A stretch of 38,484 nucleotides of DNA from an uncultured bacterium (GTDB taxonomy: Bacteria > Planctomycetota > Phycisphaerae > Phycisphaerales > SM1A02): assembly GCA_903911205.1 (NCBI GenBank), contig CAIWCL010000387.1:1-38484 (forward strand). Direction: 5' to 3'. The position numbers were made by a program, and so were the translations under genes. The notes below the pieces were generated by a model. That model was not told the origin of the DNA. It saw nothing but the letters and a program-made list of their open reading frames with translations, and searched no databases. This document shows positions 9,827 through 17,800 of the stretch, piece after piece (the stretch's first letter is position 1; each line of letters starts with the position of its first letter).

Positions 9827-9864
9827 GTGAATTTGGAGACGCCGACGCGCGTCTTCGCATCCAC

Positions 9865-9915
9865 GCGCTCCATCCAAGCGCTCCATCCAGGCGCTCCATC
9901 CAGGCGCTCCACGCG
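9865..9915. repeat. 13-bp tandem repeat, nearly four copies
   Basis: Units GCGCTCCATCCAA/G occur at 9865-9877, 9878-9890 and 9891-9903, and a diverged partial copy follows at 9904-9915. The array fills the gap between the ABC permease stop (9826) and the DUF4139 start (9959). It is not a multiple of three, consistent with a non-coding location. Confidence 0.9.
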
Positions 9916-9958
9916 TTGCTGTTCGGCTGACACAACACCCCACCTTTGGAATCTGCTC

Positions 9959-11491
9959 ATGCTCTCGACATCGCTCGCTTTCATCGCCGCAAGCACTCTT
10001 TCGCACGCCGCCCTCGCACCGCGAACTGAAACGGAGAAACCAAGCGAAGGCACGTCGCTCACGGTGTACTCGTCGGCCGATCCCGCGGGATTCGACCCGC
10101 AGCAGTTCGTGCAGCAGCAGCGATCGAGCGGCATGGACAATGTGTGGGGTGTGCCAGGCTTTGGCGTGGTGAAGTCCGTGCGGAAGCTTGCCATTCCGAA
10201 GGGGCGCGGCGAACTGGCGTTCACCGATGTCGCTGCGTGGATCGATCCGACGACGGTCTCGTTCGTCGATCTTGATGACGCGAAGACCACGGTGCTCGAG
10301 CAGAACTTCCAGTTTGATCTCGTCAGTCCATCCAAGTTGATGGAGCGCTTTCTGAATCGCGAAGTCGCGCTCGCAGTGCCGCTCGGTGAAGGCGTTTCGA
10401 ATGTCACGGGCACGCTGCTCTCGGCGAATCAGGGCCAAATCGTGCTGCAAACCGCGCAGGGCGTGAAAATCGTGCCGATGGCGGGCGCGCAAGTACTGCT
10501 CGGTGAATTGCCGGGCGGGCTCCTGACGAAGCCAACGCTCGTTTGGAAGCTCGCGAGTGAATCGGGTGGAGAACATCTCGTCCGAACGACGTATCAGACC
10601 GCCGGGATGACCTGGCGCGCGGATTACAACATCGTGCTCGACGATGCCGATCGCTCGGGTGCGATCACGGCATGGGTCACGCTCATGAATCTGTCGGGTG
10701 CGTCGTACAACGACGCAGAGTTGAAACTCGTCGCGGGCACCGTGAACAAGATCCAACCGCGCATCGGGAGCGGGATGGCGCGCGGTATGCGCATGGAGGC
10801 GATGGCGATGGCCGATGCTGCGGGAGGGTTCGAGGAAAAGGAATTCAGCGACTTCCATCTCTACACCTTGCCGCGCAAGACCGACGTCCTGCAGAACTCC
10901 ACGCAGCAAATCGCGCTCTTCCCGCCGGTGTCCGGCTTCAAGGTGAAGCGCGAACTCATGTTTGATTTCGCGGGCGGCATGATGGCGCCCGGCGCGCCGA
11001 TTCTCGATCGCGACTTCGGTGTCGCGACGAAGCAGAATCCTGCGATCCTCGTTTCGTTTGAGAACAAGAAGGACAACAGTCTCGGCATGCCGCTGCCCGC
11101 AGGCAAAATTCGAGTCTACAAAGAAGACTCGGCCGACGGTACGCTGGAGTTCGTGGGCGAGGATCTCATTGCGCACACGCCGCGCAACGAAACGGTGAAG
11201 ATCCGACTCGGCGAGGCGTTTGACGTGGTCGGCGAGCGCACGCGCACGGACTTCACCATCGACAACGCAGCGAAGCGCATGACGGAGACCTTCCGTATCG
11301 AGGTGCGCAACCAGAAGTCGTCGGCGCAGAAGGTGCGCGTACTCGAGCGGCTCTACCGCTGGACGAATTGGAAGATCGAGAACCAGAACACGCCGTTTGA
11401 GAAGCTCGATTCGGGGACGGTGGCGTTCGAACTCGATGTGCCAAGTGAGGGCAAGAAGACGATCGAGTACAAGGTGACGTACACGTGGTGA
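9959..11491 (+). CDS. Exported DUF4139 domain-containing protein
   Basis: A 510-residue protein beginning with a short signal peptide (MLSTSLAFIAASTLSHAALA). The C-terminal half carries the features of DUF4139: 'YQTAGMTWRADYNIVL', 'IRVYKED', 'DFTIDNAAKRMTETFRIEVRN' and the closing 'LDVPSEGKKTIEYKVTYTW'. The domain is a beta-rich region of unknown function in secreted proteins; no catalytic motif is evident. A Met-rich stretch (GMARGMRMEAMAMADAAG) lies mid-protein. The chosen ATG at 9959 has a weak GGA nine bases upstream; the frame extends back to 9827 but that part is mostly the translated 13-bp repeat. It probably lies in the periplasm or at the cell surface. Confidence 0.82.
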   Translation: MLSTSLAFIAASTLSHAALAPRTETEKPSEGTSLTVYSSADPAGFDPQQFVQQQRSSGMDNVWGVPGFGVVKSVRKLAIPKGRGELAFTDVAAWIDPTTVSFVDLDDAKTTVLEQNFQFDLVSPSKLMERFLNREVALAVPLGEGVSNVTGTLLSANQGQIVLQTAQGVKIVPMAGAQVLLGELPGGLLTKPTLVWKLASESGGEHLVRTTYQTAGMTWRADYNIVLDDADRSGAITAWVTLMNLSGASYNDAELKLVAGTVNKIQPRIGSGMARGMRMEAMAMADAAGGFEEKEFSDFHLYTLPRKTDVLQNSTQQIALFPPVSGFKVKRELMFDFAGGMMAPGAPILDRDFGVATKQNPAILVSFENKKDNSLGMPLPAGKIRVYKEDSADGTLEFVGEDLIAHTPRNETVKIRLGEAFDVVGERTRTDFTIDNAAKRMTETFRIEVRNQKSSAQKVRVLERLYRWTNWKIENQNTPFEKLDSGTVAFELDVPSEGKKTIEYKVTYTW

Positions 11492-11605
11492 TCGTCGGCG
11501 CGACACGCGCGGCAGCGGATCGCCGCACGGCTGGTTTACGCGCGCCCAACAGAGTGCTCGCGCGATCTTGACGCGTCGCCAATAGATCGCTGAACTCCTT
11601 CCACG

Positions 11606-11635
11606 AACCTCCAGGCTTCACCCTGGAGGTTTTTT
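11606..11635 (+). promoter_or_regulatory. Terminator-shaped hairpin containing the downstream ribosome binding site
   Basis: A perfect 10-bp stem (11606-11615 with 11622-11631) closes a 6-base loop, and T residues run from 11630 to 11635, immediately before the ATG at 11636. The descending arm contains GGAGG (11625-11629), six bases before the start, so the same structure looks like a rho-independent terminator and also hides the Shine-Dalgarno. It may simply end the DUF4139 transcript (stop at 11491), or act as an attenuator or translational switch. Confidence 0.75.
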
Positions 11636-14599
11636 ATGAGATCGATGTTCCTCGTTGCCGCTGTCGCTTCAGCCGCGTTCACGGCTGATTCCACCTTCGC
11701 AGGTGGACCTTCCATCACGCTCAACAAACTCGCGAGCACGCCACGCGCTGGCTACGACGTTGCGGGCGCCGAAATCGTTGCATTCGATGCCACGACAAAT
11801 CGCGCGTTCGTCGTCAACGGTCTCACCAACGCGATCGACATCTTCGATCTCCAGATTCCTGGCTTCCCTGTTTCGGAAGGCGCGATCTCGCTGCTTCCGT
11901 ACGGTGGCGGCGTGCAAAGCGTGGCCGTGAAGAACGGCAAGCTCGCGTGCGCCGTGCAAGGTGTTGCGAAGACGGATCCGGGCTACGCGGTGTTCTTCGA
12001 TACCGACGGAACTTTCCTCGCGAGTGTCATGGTCGGCGCGTTGCCCGACATGATCACATTCACGCCTGACGGCACGAAGGCCATCACGGCGAACGAAGGC
12101 GAACCGTCCACCACCTATGCAATCGATCCAGAAGGCTCGATCAGCATCATCGATGTGAGTGGCGCGACGATTACGCAAGCAAACGTTACGACGCTCGGCT
12201 TCAACGGCCTCCCTGCAGGCACGATTGATCCGTCGATCCGCGCGTTCGGCCCAGGTAGCCCGACGATCGGCCAAGATCTTGAACCTGAGTACGTTGTCGT
12301 GTCGGCCGACGGCTCGACGGCGTGGGTTTCGCTGCAAGAGCACGCTGCGCACGCGGTGGTCGATCTCACGATCCCAGCAATCACCGCGGTACGGCCCTTC
12401 GGCACGAAGAATCACGGCGCGGGTACGCCAAGCCTCACGGCCGCGACCTTCAACAATCCTCCGGTGCTCGGCACAACCGCCGCTGGTCAAGACATTCTCC
12501 TCGGCGGTTTCAGCGGTCTTTGGATCGACTCCGTCAACGCAGCAACAGGTGTCATTACCTTCTGGGCGAACACCGATCGCGGCCCGAACCTCGAGCCAGT
12601 GAACGTCGACGGTGACGCAGCACTTGAGCGTCCTTTCGCGTTGCCCGGTTTCCAACCGCGCATCGTGCAGTTCACCTACGACCCCGCAACGAGCGCGCTC
12701 GCGTTCACGGGCACCATCTTGCTGCGCAAGCCCGATGGCTCGCCGATGACGGGCCTGCCGAACATCCAAGGCGTTGGCACCGGTCTCGCGTACACCGACG
12801 AGCAACCGATCGACCTCTTCGGCAACACGATTCCGAACGATCCATTCGGTGGTGATCTCGAAGGCGTCGCGCGCACCGCGGACGGCAATATCTGGATGTG
12901 CGATGAGTACCGTCCTGCGCTCTATAAGTTTGACGCGACTGGTCTGATGCTCGATCGCTTCGTGCCCGCGGGATCGAACGCGTTCGGCGTCAATGTCGGC
13001 ACCGAAGCGTTCCCTGCGGTCTACGCGCAGCGCCGCGACAATCGCGGTTTCGAAGCGATCGCGGTGTGGGACAACTTCGTCTACTGCTTCGTGCAGAGCC
13101 CACTTGATAACCCAGACGTTGCAAACGATGCCAACTCGAAGACGTCGCGCAACACGCGCATCGCGAAGTTCAACACGGCGACGAACACCGTCGTTGCGGA
13201 GTACATCTACGTCCTCGAAGGTGGACAGAGCGACAAGATCGGTGACGCCTGCGCGTTCGCGCCGGGCAAGTTCCTTGTCGTCGAGCGTGATAGCTCGGTC
13301 GGCTCGTCGTCCCTCAAGAAGATCTTCCAGATCGATCTCGCAGGCGCGACTGATGTTTCGACGCTTCCCCCAGCGATCGCTGGCCCCGGAGGCACCCTCG
13401 ACAAGATGACGCCCGCGCAACTTGCAGCGGCAGGCATCGTGCCAGTGTCGAAGCAAGTGCACGTCGATCTCGCAGCGGTTGGTTACGCGAACTACGGCGA
13501 CAAGGTCGAAGGTCTTGCGATGCGCGATCCGGCGACGCTGTTCGTCATCAACGACAACGATTTCCGCATGCCGCTCACGTTTGATCTCGCGACGGGTACG
13601 TTCCCAGTGAACGCCTCCGCAGTGCCAACGACGCTCGGCATGATCACCTTCTCGGGCAATGGTCTCGATCCAAGCGATCAAGACGGCGTGAATCGCATCG
13701 CCGGCTGGCCAGTTGAAGGCGCGTACCAAGCCGACGGCATGGCCTCGTTCGTTTCGGGTGGCCAGCAGTACTACGCCACCGCAAACGAAGGCGACTCGCG
13801 TGAGTGGGGCACCTTCGTCGATCTCACCACGATCTCTTCGGCGACCGTCACGCTCGACAAGCAACTCTTCCCCGGCCGCGATTGGTTGAAGGTCAACACG
13901 CGTCTTGGTCGACTCCAAGTTCGCAAGGATCTTGGCGACCTCGATGGTGACGGCGACTGGGATCGCATCGTCGCGATCGGTTCGCGTGGCATCGCGATTT
14001 GGAACGCGAGCGGCGCGCGCGTGTGGGATTCGGGCGACTTCTTCGAGCAGTACACCGCGACGCAGTTCCCGCTGAACTTCAACGCAAGCAACACCAACAA
14101 CACGCGCGACAACCGCAGCCGTGCGAAGGGCCCAGAGCCGGAAGGCGTGGCGTTCGGCGAGATCGGCGGTCGTCCGTATCTCTTCGCGATTTGCGAGCGC
14201 GTCGGCGGCATCTTCGCCTACTCGGTCGACAATCCAGCTGCGCCTGTCTTCGAGGGCTACATCAATTCGCGTGACTTCGCGTTCGCTCCGAATACTGCTG
14301 GCGCCGGCGACCTCGGTCCTGAAGGCATCGCGTTTGTCTCCGAGAGCGACAGCCCGACTGGCAAGGCACTGCTGCTCGTGGCACACGAAATCAGTGGCAC
14401 GCTTGCGATCTACGAGGTTGCACGCGTGTGCGATACGCCGGGCGACATCAACGCCGATTGCATCGTCGATGCCGCGGACCTCGGCGAGTTGCTTTCGCAG
14501 TGGGGCGCATGCGGCAAGGGTGCGTGCAGCGCAGACCTCGACGCCGATGGCGAAGTCGGCGCGTCCGACCTTGCGATTCTGCTCTCGAACTGGGGTTGA
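11636..14599 (+). CDS. Secreted choice-of-anchor-I-type protein with phytase/esterase-like insert and C-terminal dockerin repeats
   Basis: A 987-residue exported protein (signal peptide MRSMFLVAAVASAAFTADSTFAGG). Residues 35-250 match choice-of-anchor I proteins: 'AEIVAFDATTNRAFVVNG', 'ALPDMITFTPDGTKAITANEGEP', 'DLEPEYVVVSADGSTAWVSLQE'. From about 276 to 645 the sequence becomes esterase-like phytase (PF13449 type): 'GGFSGLWID', 'NTDRGPN', 'LEGVARTADGNIWMCDEY', 'DNRGFEAIAVWD', 'DKVEGLAMRDPATLFVINDND'. The first family then resumes: 'NGLDPSDQDG', 'QADGMASF', 'YYATANEGDSREWG', 'KGPEPEGVAFGEIGG'. Residues 935-987 form two dockerin-like calcium loops (GDINADCIVDAADL; ADLDADGEVGASDL) ending in LSNWG. 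A phosphoesterase role is suggested only by family resemblance. Its start lies behind the hairpin at 11606-11635. Domain boundaries are by eye. Confidence 0.85.
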   Translation: MRSMFLVAAVASAAFTADSTFAGGPSITLNKLASTPRAGYDVAGAEIVAFDATTNRAFVVNGLTNAIDIFDLQIPGFPVSEGAISLLPYGGGVQSVAVKNGKLACAVQGVAKTDPGYAVFFDTDGTFLASVMVGALPDMITFTPDGTKAITANEGEPSTTYAIDPEGSISIIDVSGATITQANVTTLGFNGLPAGTIDPSIRAFGPGSPTIGQDLEPEYVVVSADGSTAWVSLQEHAAHAVVDLTIPAITAVRPFGTKNHGAGTPSLTAATFNNPPVLGTTAAGQDILLGGFSGLWIDSVNAATGVITFWANTDRGPNLEPVNVDGDAALERPFALPGFQPRIVQFTYDPATSALAFTGTILLRKPDGSPMTGLPNIQGVGTGLAYTDEQPIDLFGNTIPNDPFGGDLEGVARTADGNIWMCDEYRPALYKFDATGLMLDRFVPAGSNAFGVNVGTEAFPAVYAQRRDNRGFEAIAVWDNFVYCFVQSPLDNPDVANDANSKTSRNTRIAKFNTATNTVVAEYIYVLEGGQSDKIGDACAFAPGKFLVVERDSSVGSSSLKKIFQIDLAGATDVSTLPPAIAGPGGTLDKMTPAQLAAAGIVPVSKQVHVDLAAVGYANYGDKVEGLAMRDPATLFVINDNDFRMPLTFDLATGTFPVNASAVPTTLGMITFSGNGLDPSDQDGVNRIAGWPVEGAYQADGMASFVSGGQQYYATANEGDSREWGTFVDLTTISSATVTLDKQLFPGRDWLKVNTRLGRLQVRKDLGDLDGDGDWDRIVAIGSRGIAIWNASGARVWDSGDFFEQYTATQFPLNFNASNTNNTRDNRSRAKGPEPEGVAFGEIGGRPYLFAICERVGGIFAYSVDNPAAPVFEGYINSRDFAFAPNTAGAGDLGPEGIAFVSESDSPTGKALLLVAHEISGTLAIYEVARVCDTPGDINADCIVDAADLGELLSQWGACGKGACSADLDADGEVGASDLAILLSNWG

Positions 14600-15603: not shown

Positions 15604-17595
15604 TCAAGTGCCCCATGCAGCGAGGAGTGCCGCGAGGTCCGCGGCGTCGACCGAGCCGCTGCCGTCGATGTCGCCGGAGCCCGAGCCACCCCAATTGGAG
15701 AGAAGCGTGGAAAGATCGCTCGCATCAACCGAGCCGTCGCCGTTCAAGTCTGCAGGGTTGCCCGCAGACAACTTGACGCTCGCCGCATCCATCGCGACCG
15801 GCGCGCTCTTACCCGTCTCGACCCAAAGGTCGTAGGCAGTTTGGCCTGTCGTGTCGGTGTAGTTCTGATCGCGGAGGAATTCGATGTACTCCTTCGTCGT
15901 GGTCTGGTAGTACAACGTCACGGTTGCGCCAGTCGCCCCGGCAGGAATGTCGAACAACGTGTCATCCCAGTGTTGACCGTCGGCATAGGTGTAGCCAACG
16001 GCACCCGAGCCAATCGCGTTAAACGACGCGTTGGTGAAGCCGCGAGGCGGGATGCGATTGTCGGAGTACACCTTGTTGGCAAGCGCGAGGTGGAAGCCAG
16101 GGCCAGCGGGAATACCCGTCAGCTTCGCGATGGCGGGCGAAATTCCTTGCTTCGCCTGGTAGACCTTGGTGTCCTTCGTCGTGAGTTGCGCCGAAGCACT
16201 GTTGTATGCCCCGCGCTCGGCAACGACGGCTCCGGCCGCGTCAGTGAACTTCACGTTGAGCCACATGCGGCGACCTTCCGGATAGCCCGTTGGTAGCTTG
16301 TGGCCCGACTCGTTGACAACGCGCACCTTGATCTGTGAACCCTCTTGGGTCACTTGCATGTCGGAGGCGTTCTGCAACATCTGAATCGTGCGCGCAGAAG
16401 CTTGGTCGATCCGGTCTTGCGTGAGGCCGAGTGCATCAGCTTCATCGGGGCCAAGTTGCTCGCGGATCGCTTGCACAACCCACGTGTTCGCGCCGGCGAA
16501 CGAGTGCTGCGGCATGTCGGTGCGCTCAAACCACGGCTCGCCGAACTCGTAGAAGCGGCAGCCACCCGCGATCACCTTCGGCATGTGGCAATCTTGGCAA
16601 CTTGAAACGACACCGTCGGCATCGTTCCCACCGTAGCGGTGGTCGGCGTACTCAACACCGTTGACATACGAGCTGTTCAGCCACTCGCTGTAGGTGCGCT
16701 GCTCAGGGAACATCTCCATCGGATTCTGCGTCGGGTGCGGAGAACCGAGTGGGTTGAGGACGTACTCGCCCGTCTTCTGGTTCTTGGTGTAGAGCGGGTT
16801 GCTCACGTCGTGGCAAGTGCCGCAGAACTCGCTGGAGCGGTGGTAGGGCGATGTGATCAATTTCACAGAGCCGCCGTGGAGGTTCACCGGAACATCGCTG
16901 AATGGACCGCGACGGTTGTCCTCAGGATCGACCACGTAGCGGCCGTTTCCGTCGCCAGTCGGGATCAGACCTTGCGATTGAAGTGCGCTGATGATCGGGA
17001 CGTCAGGCTGCGCGGGGTCGCCGGGGTAGCCGACCGCACTCTCGGGTCCGAGGGTTGGATTGACGATGCGGTGACATGCGTTGCAGTTCACGCCGTCGAA
17101 ATCTTCGGCGCCGAAATCATCGATCTTGCCGTCGGCAGACTTGCCGGACAACCAACCCGCGGGCGAGTGGCAACGGATACACGTCTCGCCGCCCACGTTT
17201 GCGTCTTGATTCGCGATCGCGAGCGCTGCATGCCACACCGGGTCGCGCGCGCTCTGGCCCATGAGGCTCGTAATCCACGTGTCATACGGCGCAATCTGAT
17301 CGCCGTAATCGGAGTGGCAGTACTGGCAATTGATGCCGCCGATGATCGGGGCGAAGACGTCGGGGTTCGGTTCTGGTTGCGTACCAGGTTGGAAGAAGTC
17401 GGCGGCGGTTGTTGGGACCTGCTTCTGACCAGCTCCACCGCGAGCAGCGACCGAGCCGACGATTCCGCCGACCGCGGCGAGCGCCGCAACGGCAAGAACA
17501 CCCTTCATGACGGTGCCGCGGAACTTCGTTGAAGTCGAAGCATCGGAACTTCGCTGCACGGTGGGATTCATGTTTTGCTTGGAAGGATCGGTCAT
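15604..17595 (-). CDS. Five-heme c-type cytochrome with C-terminal dockerin-like repeats
   Basis: A 663-residue exported protein. After a hydrophobic N-terminal segment (about residues 32-50, signal peptide or anchor) there are five CxxCH heme motifs: CQYCH 90-94, CIRCH 139-143, CNACH 171-175, CGTCH 258-262 and CQDCH 333-337. Several other His residues could be distal ligands. A beta-rich region follows, containing 'NESGHKLPTGYPEGRR', a motif seen in multiheme cytochrome families. The tail has two dockerin-like loops (ADLNGDGSVDASDL; GDIDGSGSVDAADL) ending in AAWGT. It should act in electron transfer outside the cytoplasmic membrane; partner and substrate are unknown. ATG 17595 is preceded by AAGG; the frame extends to 17745 without signal-like content. 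Ordinary cytochromes of this kind lack dockerin repeats. Confidence 0.9.
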   Translation of the reverse strand: MTDPSKQNMNPTVQRSSDASTSTKFRGTVMKGVLAVAALAAVGGIVGSVAARGGAGQKQVPTTAADFFQPGTQPEPNPDVFAPIIGGINCQYCHSDYGDQIAPYDTWITSLMGQSARDPVWHAALAIANQDANVGGETCIRCHSPAGWLSGKSADGKIDDFGAEDFDGVNCNACHRIVNPTLGPESAVGYPGDPAQPDVPIISALQSQGLIPTGDGNGRYVVDPEDNRRGPFSDVPVNLHGGSVKLITSPYHRSSEFCGTCHDVSNPLYTKNQKTGEYVLNPLGSPHPTQNPMEMFPEQRTYSEWLNSSYVNGVEYADHRYGGNDADGVVSSCQDCHMPKVIAGGCRFYEFGEPWFERTDMPQHSFAGANTWVVQAIREQLGPDEADALGLTQDRIDQASARTIQMLQNASDMQVTQEGSQIKVRVVNESGHKLPTGYPEGRRMWLNVKFTDAAGAVVAERGAYNSASAQLTTKDTKVYQAKQGISPAIAKLTGIPAGPGFHLALANKVYSDNRIPPRGFTNASFNAIGSGAVGYTYADGQHWDDTLFDIPAGATGATVTLYYQTTTKEYIEFLRDQNYTDTTGQTAYDLWVETGKSAPVAMDAASVKLSAGNPADLNGDGSVDASDLSTLLSNWGGSGSGDIDGSGSVDAADLAALLAAWGT

Positions 17596-17772
17596 ATCGT
17601 CGCCTTTTTCGCTGGGCCGTTCTCGCAGGGACCTTCTCACTGGGACTGCGTCGCTGGACACTTCTTCAAGACAGGGTTGCTCGACCCGCAACAAACATCG
17701 GTCAGAGACTGCTCCGGTTCGCACGAGAGCGTGTGGCGTTCCCAAAAAACGTGGGTTCTCGCCACAGTACGC

Positions 17773-17800
17773 AGAGTAAACCCGCCCCGCGAGGGGTCAA
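17773..17800 (-). promoter_or_regulatory. Candidate promoter for the cytochrome gene
   Basis: On the minus strand TTGACC (17795-17800) and TACTCT (17773-17778) are separated by 16 bases. The -35 matches TTGACA at five positions and the -10 keeps the most conserved T, A and final T. This would give a leader of about 170 bases before the ATG at 17595. It lies in the 301-bp divergent region 17596-17896, in which I see no gene. Confidence 0.4.

Follow-up and report, generated by a model that had tools for sequence, protein, structure and literature searches.

Why does the gene for a large secreted enzyme carry its ribosome-binding site inside a terminator-like hairpin that reaches almost to the start codon? 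The question arises from a 38,484-nt stretch of DNA from an uncultivated planctomycete, referred to here as the window. The gene behind the hairpin (11636–14599, + strand) encodes a 987-aa secreted choice-of-anchor I/phytase-like esterase with a C-terminal dockerin-type tail (PF22494, E 2.7e-121; PF13449, E 6.5e-46; NF038117, E 4.3e-141), a predicted phosphatase-like product for which a search of solved structures gave no sequence match. On the opposite strand, positions 15604–17796 encode a multihaem cytochrome-like secreted protein with a dockerin-type tail.

A reading made earlier from the letters alone (the sequence-only reading) had described a 10-bp stem with a 6-base loop, a run of six Ts and a GGAGG at six-base spacing, and the sequence bears this out in every part. 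The 5' arm AACCTCCAGG (11606–11615, + strand, as are all elements of the hairpin) is the anti-Shine-Dalgarno strand; it is followed by the loop CTTCAC (11616–11621) and the 3' arm CCTGGAGGTT (11622–11631), which contains the Shine-Dalgarno (SD) sequence GGAGG (11625–11629), six bases from ATG 11636. A T6 tract (11630–11635), two of whose Ts lie in the stem, separates the SD from the ATG, so that the whole element, a perfect 10-bp stem with its 6-nt loop and the T6, runs up to the base before the start codon. A G-U pair (G11605–T11632) extends the stem to 11 bp. Folding of the RNA from 11480 to 11660 placed the stem in both the minimum free energy (MFE) and the centroid structure, and the 34-nt leader piece gave an MFE of −17.9 kcal/mol, compared to a shuffle mean of −5.8, with none of 300 dinucleotide shuffles as stable. 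By predicted folding, the SD in long transcripts is thus paired in a stable helix, as in known hairpins that silence the ribosome-binding sites of read-through RNA.

We then asked how unusual this arrangement is. Among 136 SD-preceded genes of a genus sample (~430 kb), it is the longest SD-covering stem; when the upstream halves were exchanged between genes, a stem of ≥10 bp arose ~0.05 times per 136 genes. Across the same 136 genes there was no general excess of long ribosome-binding-site stems over the swapped controls. A run of four Ts within ≤10 nt of the start occurred in 3/136 genes, two of which are the window gene and its orthologue. A covariance model of the leader (R2) was run against 16 genomes: in seven it retrieved orthologue leaders (E 2.4e-7 or better), and below E 0.02 it hit nothing except orthologue leaders in any of the 16. 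A leader module repeated through the genome was rejected, as GGAGGTTTTTTATG occurs once, and the remaining CCTCC..GGAGG..ATG sites of the genome appear to be chance occurrences. In another gene of the genus, which codes for a 382-aa exported-looking protein (L137; G002:C17:3897-3936), tandem CTTCACTCCGA repeats reach almost to the start codon and form a 6-bp hairpin over that gene's SD.

The genus comprises 16 genomes, 12 of which have the full-length gene at 72–100% identity. The position of the start codon was kept in 12/12 orthologues, as was an SD about six bases before it (GGAG in G004). A stem covering the SD was significant in 10 of the 12 (P 0.007 or better for stability against shuffles), weak in one (G005; P 0.08) and lost in one (G007), where CCTCC has become CGTGC. 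The arms are CCTCCAGG/CCTGGAGG in the window, CCTCCGGG/CCCGGAGG in G001, CCTCCTG/CAGGAGG in G008, CCTCCTCGGT/ACCGAGGAGG in G006, CTCCTC/GAGGAG in G004, CCTCTAG/CTGGAGG in G011 and CCTCCGG/CTGGAGG in G002. Counting over the aligned arms revealed two pairs that change on both sides: pair 59–96 (columns 9–14 of A4) is found in four forms (A-U, U-A, G-C and G-U), and the pair after it in two (G-C and C-G). The covariation score was 0.170 vs. 0.072 when shuffled (reached by 1/500), and it was ≤0.061 with the partner slid. On the protein tree, at least three separate two-sided changes are required (A-U against U-A in G014 and G008; G-C in G001 where its sister group has A-U; and the U-A and C-G pairs of G004 and G006). 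Compensatory changes in the stems of relatives are what the sequence-only reading had proposed to look for, and these 12 leaders contain them. The leaders of four distant orthologues (L055, L056, L058, and L059), inspected by eye, showed no such hairpin.

Upstream of the hairpin lie tandem 11-bp repeats that resemble a Pho box (11534–11594, + strand), with units GTTTAC (11534), CCCAAC (11545), GCTCGC (11556), CTTGAC (11567; the strongest), GCCAAT (11578) and GCTGAA (11589). Averaged over eight equally spaced leaders, the best offsets of CTTnAC-like units from the hairpin foot were 38, 71 and 49, with 60 in fifth place, and these four offsets share one 11-bp register. The motif is shared with pstS: leaders of pstS in the genus carry a matching tandem unit (e.g., CTTTACACGGA-CTTCAC and CTTGACCAAAT-CTTGAC), as does a phoB-like response-regulator gene. 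The genus-wide pstS box (loci L066–L078; L067 is G000:C33:13528-13544) reads CTTKAC-N5-CTTSAC, with an invariant xAxxxT 10 nt downstream, and the pstS −10 region is often GACCMTTCC. PhoB of Escherichia coli binds 11-bp direct repeats (PMC2648988). On these grounds we read the repeats upstream of the hairpin as a candidate Pho box. A literature search for a planctomycete Pho box found no direct description in the library consulted, and we propose the pattern above, with its spacing, as a definition for this planctomycete genus. It should be noted that CTTNAC pairs counted genome-wide were not enriched over a reversed control. We also observed Pho-box-like tandem repeats upstream of a TonB-dependent-receptor-like gene (L098; G000:C288:450-466), and two Pho-box-like sites ~100 bp apart on opposite strands (G011:C207:13058 and 13156), perhaps a divergent pair.

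Where, then, would a transcript from this promoter begin? The two most constrained positions of a −10 hexamer are the A at position 2 and the T at position 6. Both are present in 11/11 pstS promoters, in the hexamer that lies 16 nt beyond the final repeat. In the nine equally spaced leaders of the hairpin gene, both were conserved in 9/9 at the offset of GAACCT (GAACGT in G007) and in ≤2/9 at any other offset. In the window, this predicted −10 (11605–11610, + strand) overlaps the 5' arm of the hairpin, so that tandem 11-bp direct repeats stand immediately 5' of a −10, as in Pho promoters. GAACCT lies 38 nt (16 + 22) from CTTGAC and 16 nt from a degenerate unit; the unit at 16 nt is degenerate in all nine leaders. 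In three other orthologue leaders GATCCT, GAACCT and GACGCT stand 16 nt after CTTCAC, GTTCAC and CTTGAC, respectively, and in three outgroup orthologues GAGCAT, GACGAT and GAGCAT stand 16 nt after TCACAY. Placed by the Pho geometry, the predicted −10 falls within or just before the 5' arm in 12/12 orthologues. In G004, repeat, −10 and hairpin are all shifted together, with the −10 just upstream of the 5' arm. The stem-less G007 retains the promoter positions, suggesting that this block is held for a reason other than pairing. These hexamers are weak matches to TATAAT, and a 47-nt matrix trained on pstS, which ranked a site 22 nt upstream first in several leaders, was too noisy to decide alone. 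Transcription should then start 6–9 nt downstream of the predicted −10, in the hairpin loop (11616–11619, + strand), or at the end of the arm in G004 and G006.

A transcript that begins in the loop would lack the 5' arm and leave the SD exposed. The other possible source of RNA is the operon upstream, on the same strand, where a gene for an ABC-2 membrane protein and a DUF4139 (mucoidy-inhibitor-A-like; PF13598) gene are located; the latter (9827–11491) is the predicted source of read-through. The DUF4139 gene is directly upstream in every hairpin-bearing orthologue and was not found upstream of the outgroup genes L055, L056, L058 and L059, an association in which hairpin and neighbour are confounded by shared descent. 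An intergenic terminator scan found no other terminator-like hairpin between the DUF4139 gene and the window gene. Predicted exposure of the SD in most species was 0.00–0.04 in read-through RNA vs. about 0.2–0.5 in loop-started transcripts. It barely differed between the two RNA forms in G005, G007 and G014, and in G004 occlusion of the SD in read-through RNA was no more than partial (exposure 0.20). In the window the GC-rich stem runs directly into a U tract, as in an intrinsic terminator or attenuator, and with its T6 the hairpin would act as such a terminator on read-through RNA. Short-palindrome clusters (e.g., TGGCACGTGCCAGGCACCG and TGCCTGGCAC) were seen at L052 25–195 (G012), in the intergenic region of L054 (G014) and at L094 (G000:C68 near 5004), and may represent a REP-like repeat family of intergenic clusters in the genus.

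The reading that we prefer is that the hairpin is a read-through insulator built across a phosphate-starvation promoter, with a 5' strand that overlaps the −10 of the Pho promoter and a 3' strand that provides the SD and then the U tract. RNA arriving from the DUF4139 operon would carry both strands and fold into the hairpin, which would then cover the SD; where a U tract is present, such RNA may also terminate just before the ATG. Upon phosphate starvation, transcripts from the Pho promoter would start in the loop, without the 5' strand, and be translated. Production of the phosphatase-like protein would in this way be confined to transcripts of its own regulated promoter. We regard this as the best explanation of the locus and, on balance, a probable one. 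Sequence comparison establishes the hairpin with its conservation and covariation, the 11-bp repeats, the −10 geometry and the neighbouring upstream gene; the start site, the read-through, the translational block and the termination are predictions. The purpose of the hairpin is then probably to act in read-through RNA, and it is best read as an insulator against read-through, to which some species add termination. The fullest version gives the same 30 bp three roles, namely −10 of a starvation promoter, terminator of the neighbouring operon and translation block for read-through RNA; it is more tentative, and we consider it doubtful.

We had at first put the start at A11603, immediately before the hairpin, and gave this up on comparison with pstS promoters. 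If a start just upstream of the hairpin (e.g., A11603) were nevertheless used, the gene's own mRNA would carry the hairpin, which would damp translation or protect the 5' end until a protein or sRNA opened it. The purine conserved at 11603, a C..A motif ~12–15 nt upstream of the foot and a 37-nt interval from CTTGAC to the foot that is free of indels in nine leaders all fit such a start, as does a precedent in Bacillus subtilis, where a small ribosome-binding-site hairpin in sigG's own leader damps translation 2–4-fold (PMC5942855). However, this start calls for an unknown opener, as predicted SD exposure at 25°C is 0.000 in most species; the C..A motif is in register with the repeat units and is not −10-like (C at position 2); no conserved xAxxxT is found there; and GAACGT is kept where the stem is gone. 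We judge this start unlikely. Rather less likely still is that the element serves chiefly to terminate the DUF4139 operon, or arose as a side effect of a CCTCC-bearing −10 near a GGAGG SD, with the hiding of the SD incidental. The T run (T4 or longer) is kept in 7/12 orthologues, and in most of these no separate terminator-like hairpin was found in the intergenic region; G005 and G012 have a separate one and no T run, in numbers too small for a test. In addition, CCTCC resembles the sequence in and after pstS −10 regions (CCTTCC, CCCTCCC), so that the pairing of GGAGG at the core of the stem may in part be a side effect. Against this, four of the five orthologues without the T run still have the stem, and the covarying pairs are part of neither the −10 nor the SD. 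A CCTCC next to the −10 may be common in these promoters, so that the core of the stem may have come at no cost, the covarying upper pairs then reflecting selection at a later stage.

The remaining alternatives concern a switched leader or a DNA site. Given a terminator-like hairpin immediately 5' of a start codon, the sequence-only reading had suggested a riboswitch or attenuator leader, with the gene switched by leader pairing and a CUUCC as alternative partner of GGAGG; an RNA thermometer was considered along with them. We found no Rfam 15 match in the window. The orthologue leaders show neither an alternative partner nor a stretch of aptamer size that is conserved, and seven orthologues examined over the first 240 nt of the coding sequence yielded no antiterminator-like partner. 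The CUUCC lies at 11598–11602, one base from the position first given, upstream of the predicted −10, and is not conserved. Up to 65°C, the stem is predicted to stay closed (SD exposure 0.001 at 65°C), and riboswitch and thermometer were rejected on these grounds; a ligand-gated or temperature-gated leader is in our view very improbable. What stands of the roles first suggested is a sequestered ribosome-binding site, conserved with compensatory changes and terminator-like in this species; the switched leader is not supported. That reading had also named a start downstream of about 11615 as fatal to its proposal; the predicted start does lie there, for the gene's own transcripts only, and read-through RNA can still fold. 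Lastly, a perfect palindrome near a transcription start might be the DNA operator of a dimeric repressor just downstream of the promoter. The arms stand 10, 11, 12, 13, about 20 or about 36 nt apart in the orthologues, beyond the SD the half-sites differ in sequence, and two species have G-U pairs; loop length also varies (3 to 10, with a whole extra hairpin in the loop of G014), which speaks for RNA and against an operator. We rejected the operator on the variable arm spacing and regard it as scarcely credible. The extra hairpin of G014 (CGCTCC...GGAGCG; L054 around 2300–2500; G014:C362) sits in the loop with the outer SD-hiding stem kept.

The preferred reading, a read-through insulator, has precedents. 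In phage T4 gene e, long early transcripts fold a hairpin over the ribosome-binding site that lowers lysozyme ~100-fold; transcripts from late promoters, which lie where the 5' strand is encoded, are free of it (PMC3014915). As in gene e (also soc, 49, and I-TevI; PMC3014915), the SD/AUG would lie in a helix in long transcripts initiated upstream, a promoter is predicted within the 5'-strand region whose transcripts would be helix-free and translated, and the helix is conserved among relatives. The T4 case, in contrast, concerns phage early/late timing instead of phosphate regulation and is experimentally proven, whereas the mechanism here is inferred, and the window hairpin adds a terminator-like U tract. 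In B. subtilis, a large hairpin has been proposed to keep RNA that runs on from spoIIG into sigG untranslated; transcripts of the sigG promoter itself are unable to fold it (PMC5942855). That case too is a chromosomal gene behind an operon, with a proposed read-through hairpin missing from own-promoter transcripts; it differs in a hairpin of 20+ pairs, a sigma-factor promoter, the lack of a Pho box, and an unrelated gene and phylum. The tandem 11-bp repeats immediately upstream of a −10 resemble those of a PhoB-type promoter (PMC2648988), although the unit here is CTTnAC-N5 rather than CTGTCAT-N4 and the −10 doubles as a hairpin strand. Unlike in an intrinsic terminator, the T run is not conserved across the genus and sits between SD and start codon. 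The window element would thus work like those of T4 gene e and spoIIG-sigG, a membership that depends on the inferred start and read-through.

On this reading, the locus would be a conserved chromosomal case, outside phages and Firmicutes, of a promoter-straddling ribosome-binding-site hairpin, a type best known from phage T4. If the fuller, three-role version holds and its logic recurs with other sequences elsewhere in Planctomycetota, it may be a general means of insulating tightly regulated secreted enzymes in dense genomes.
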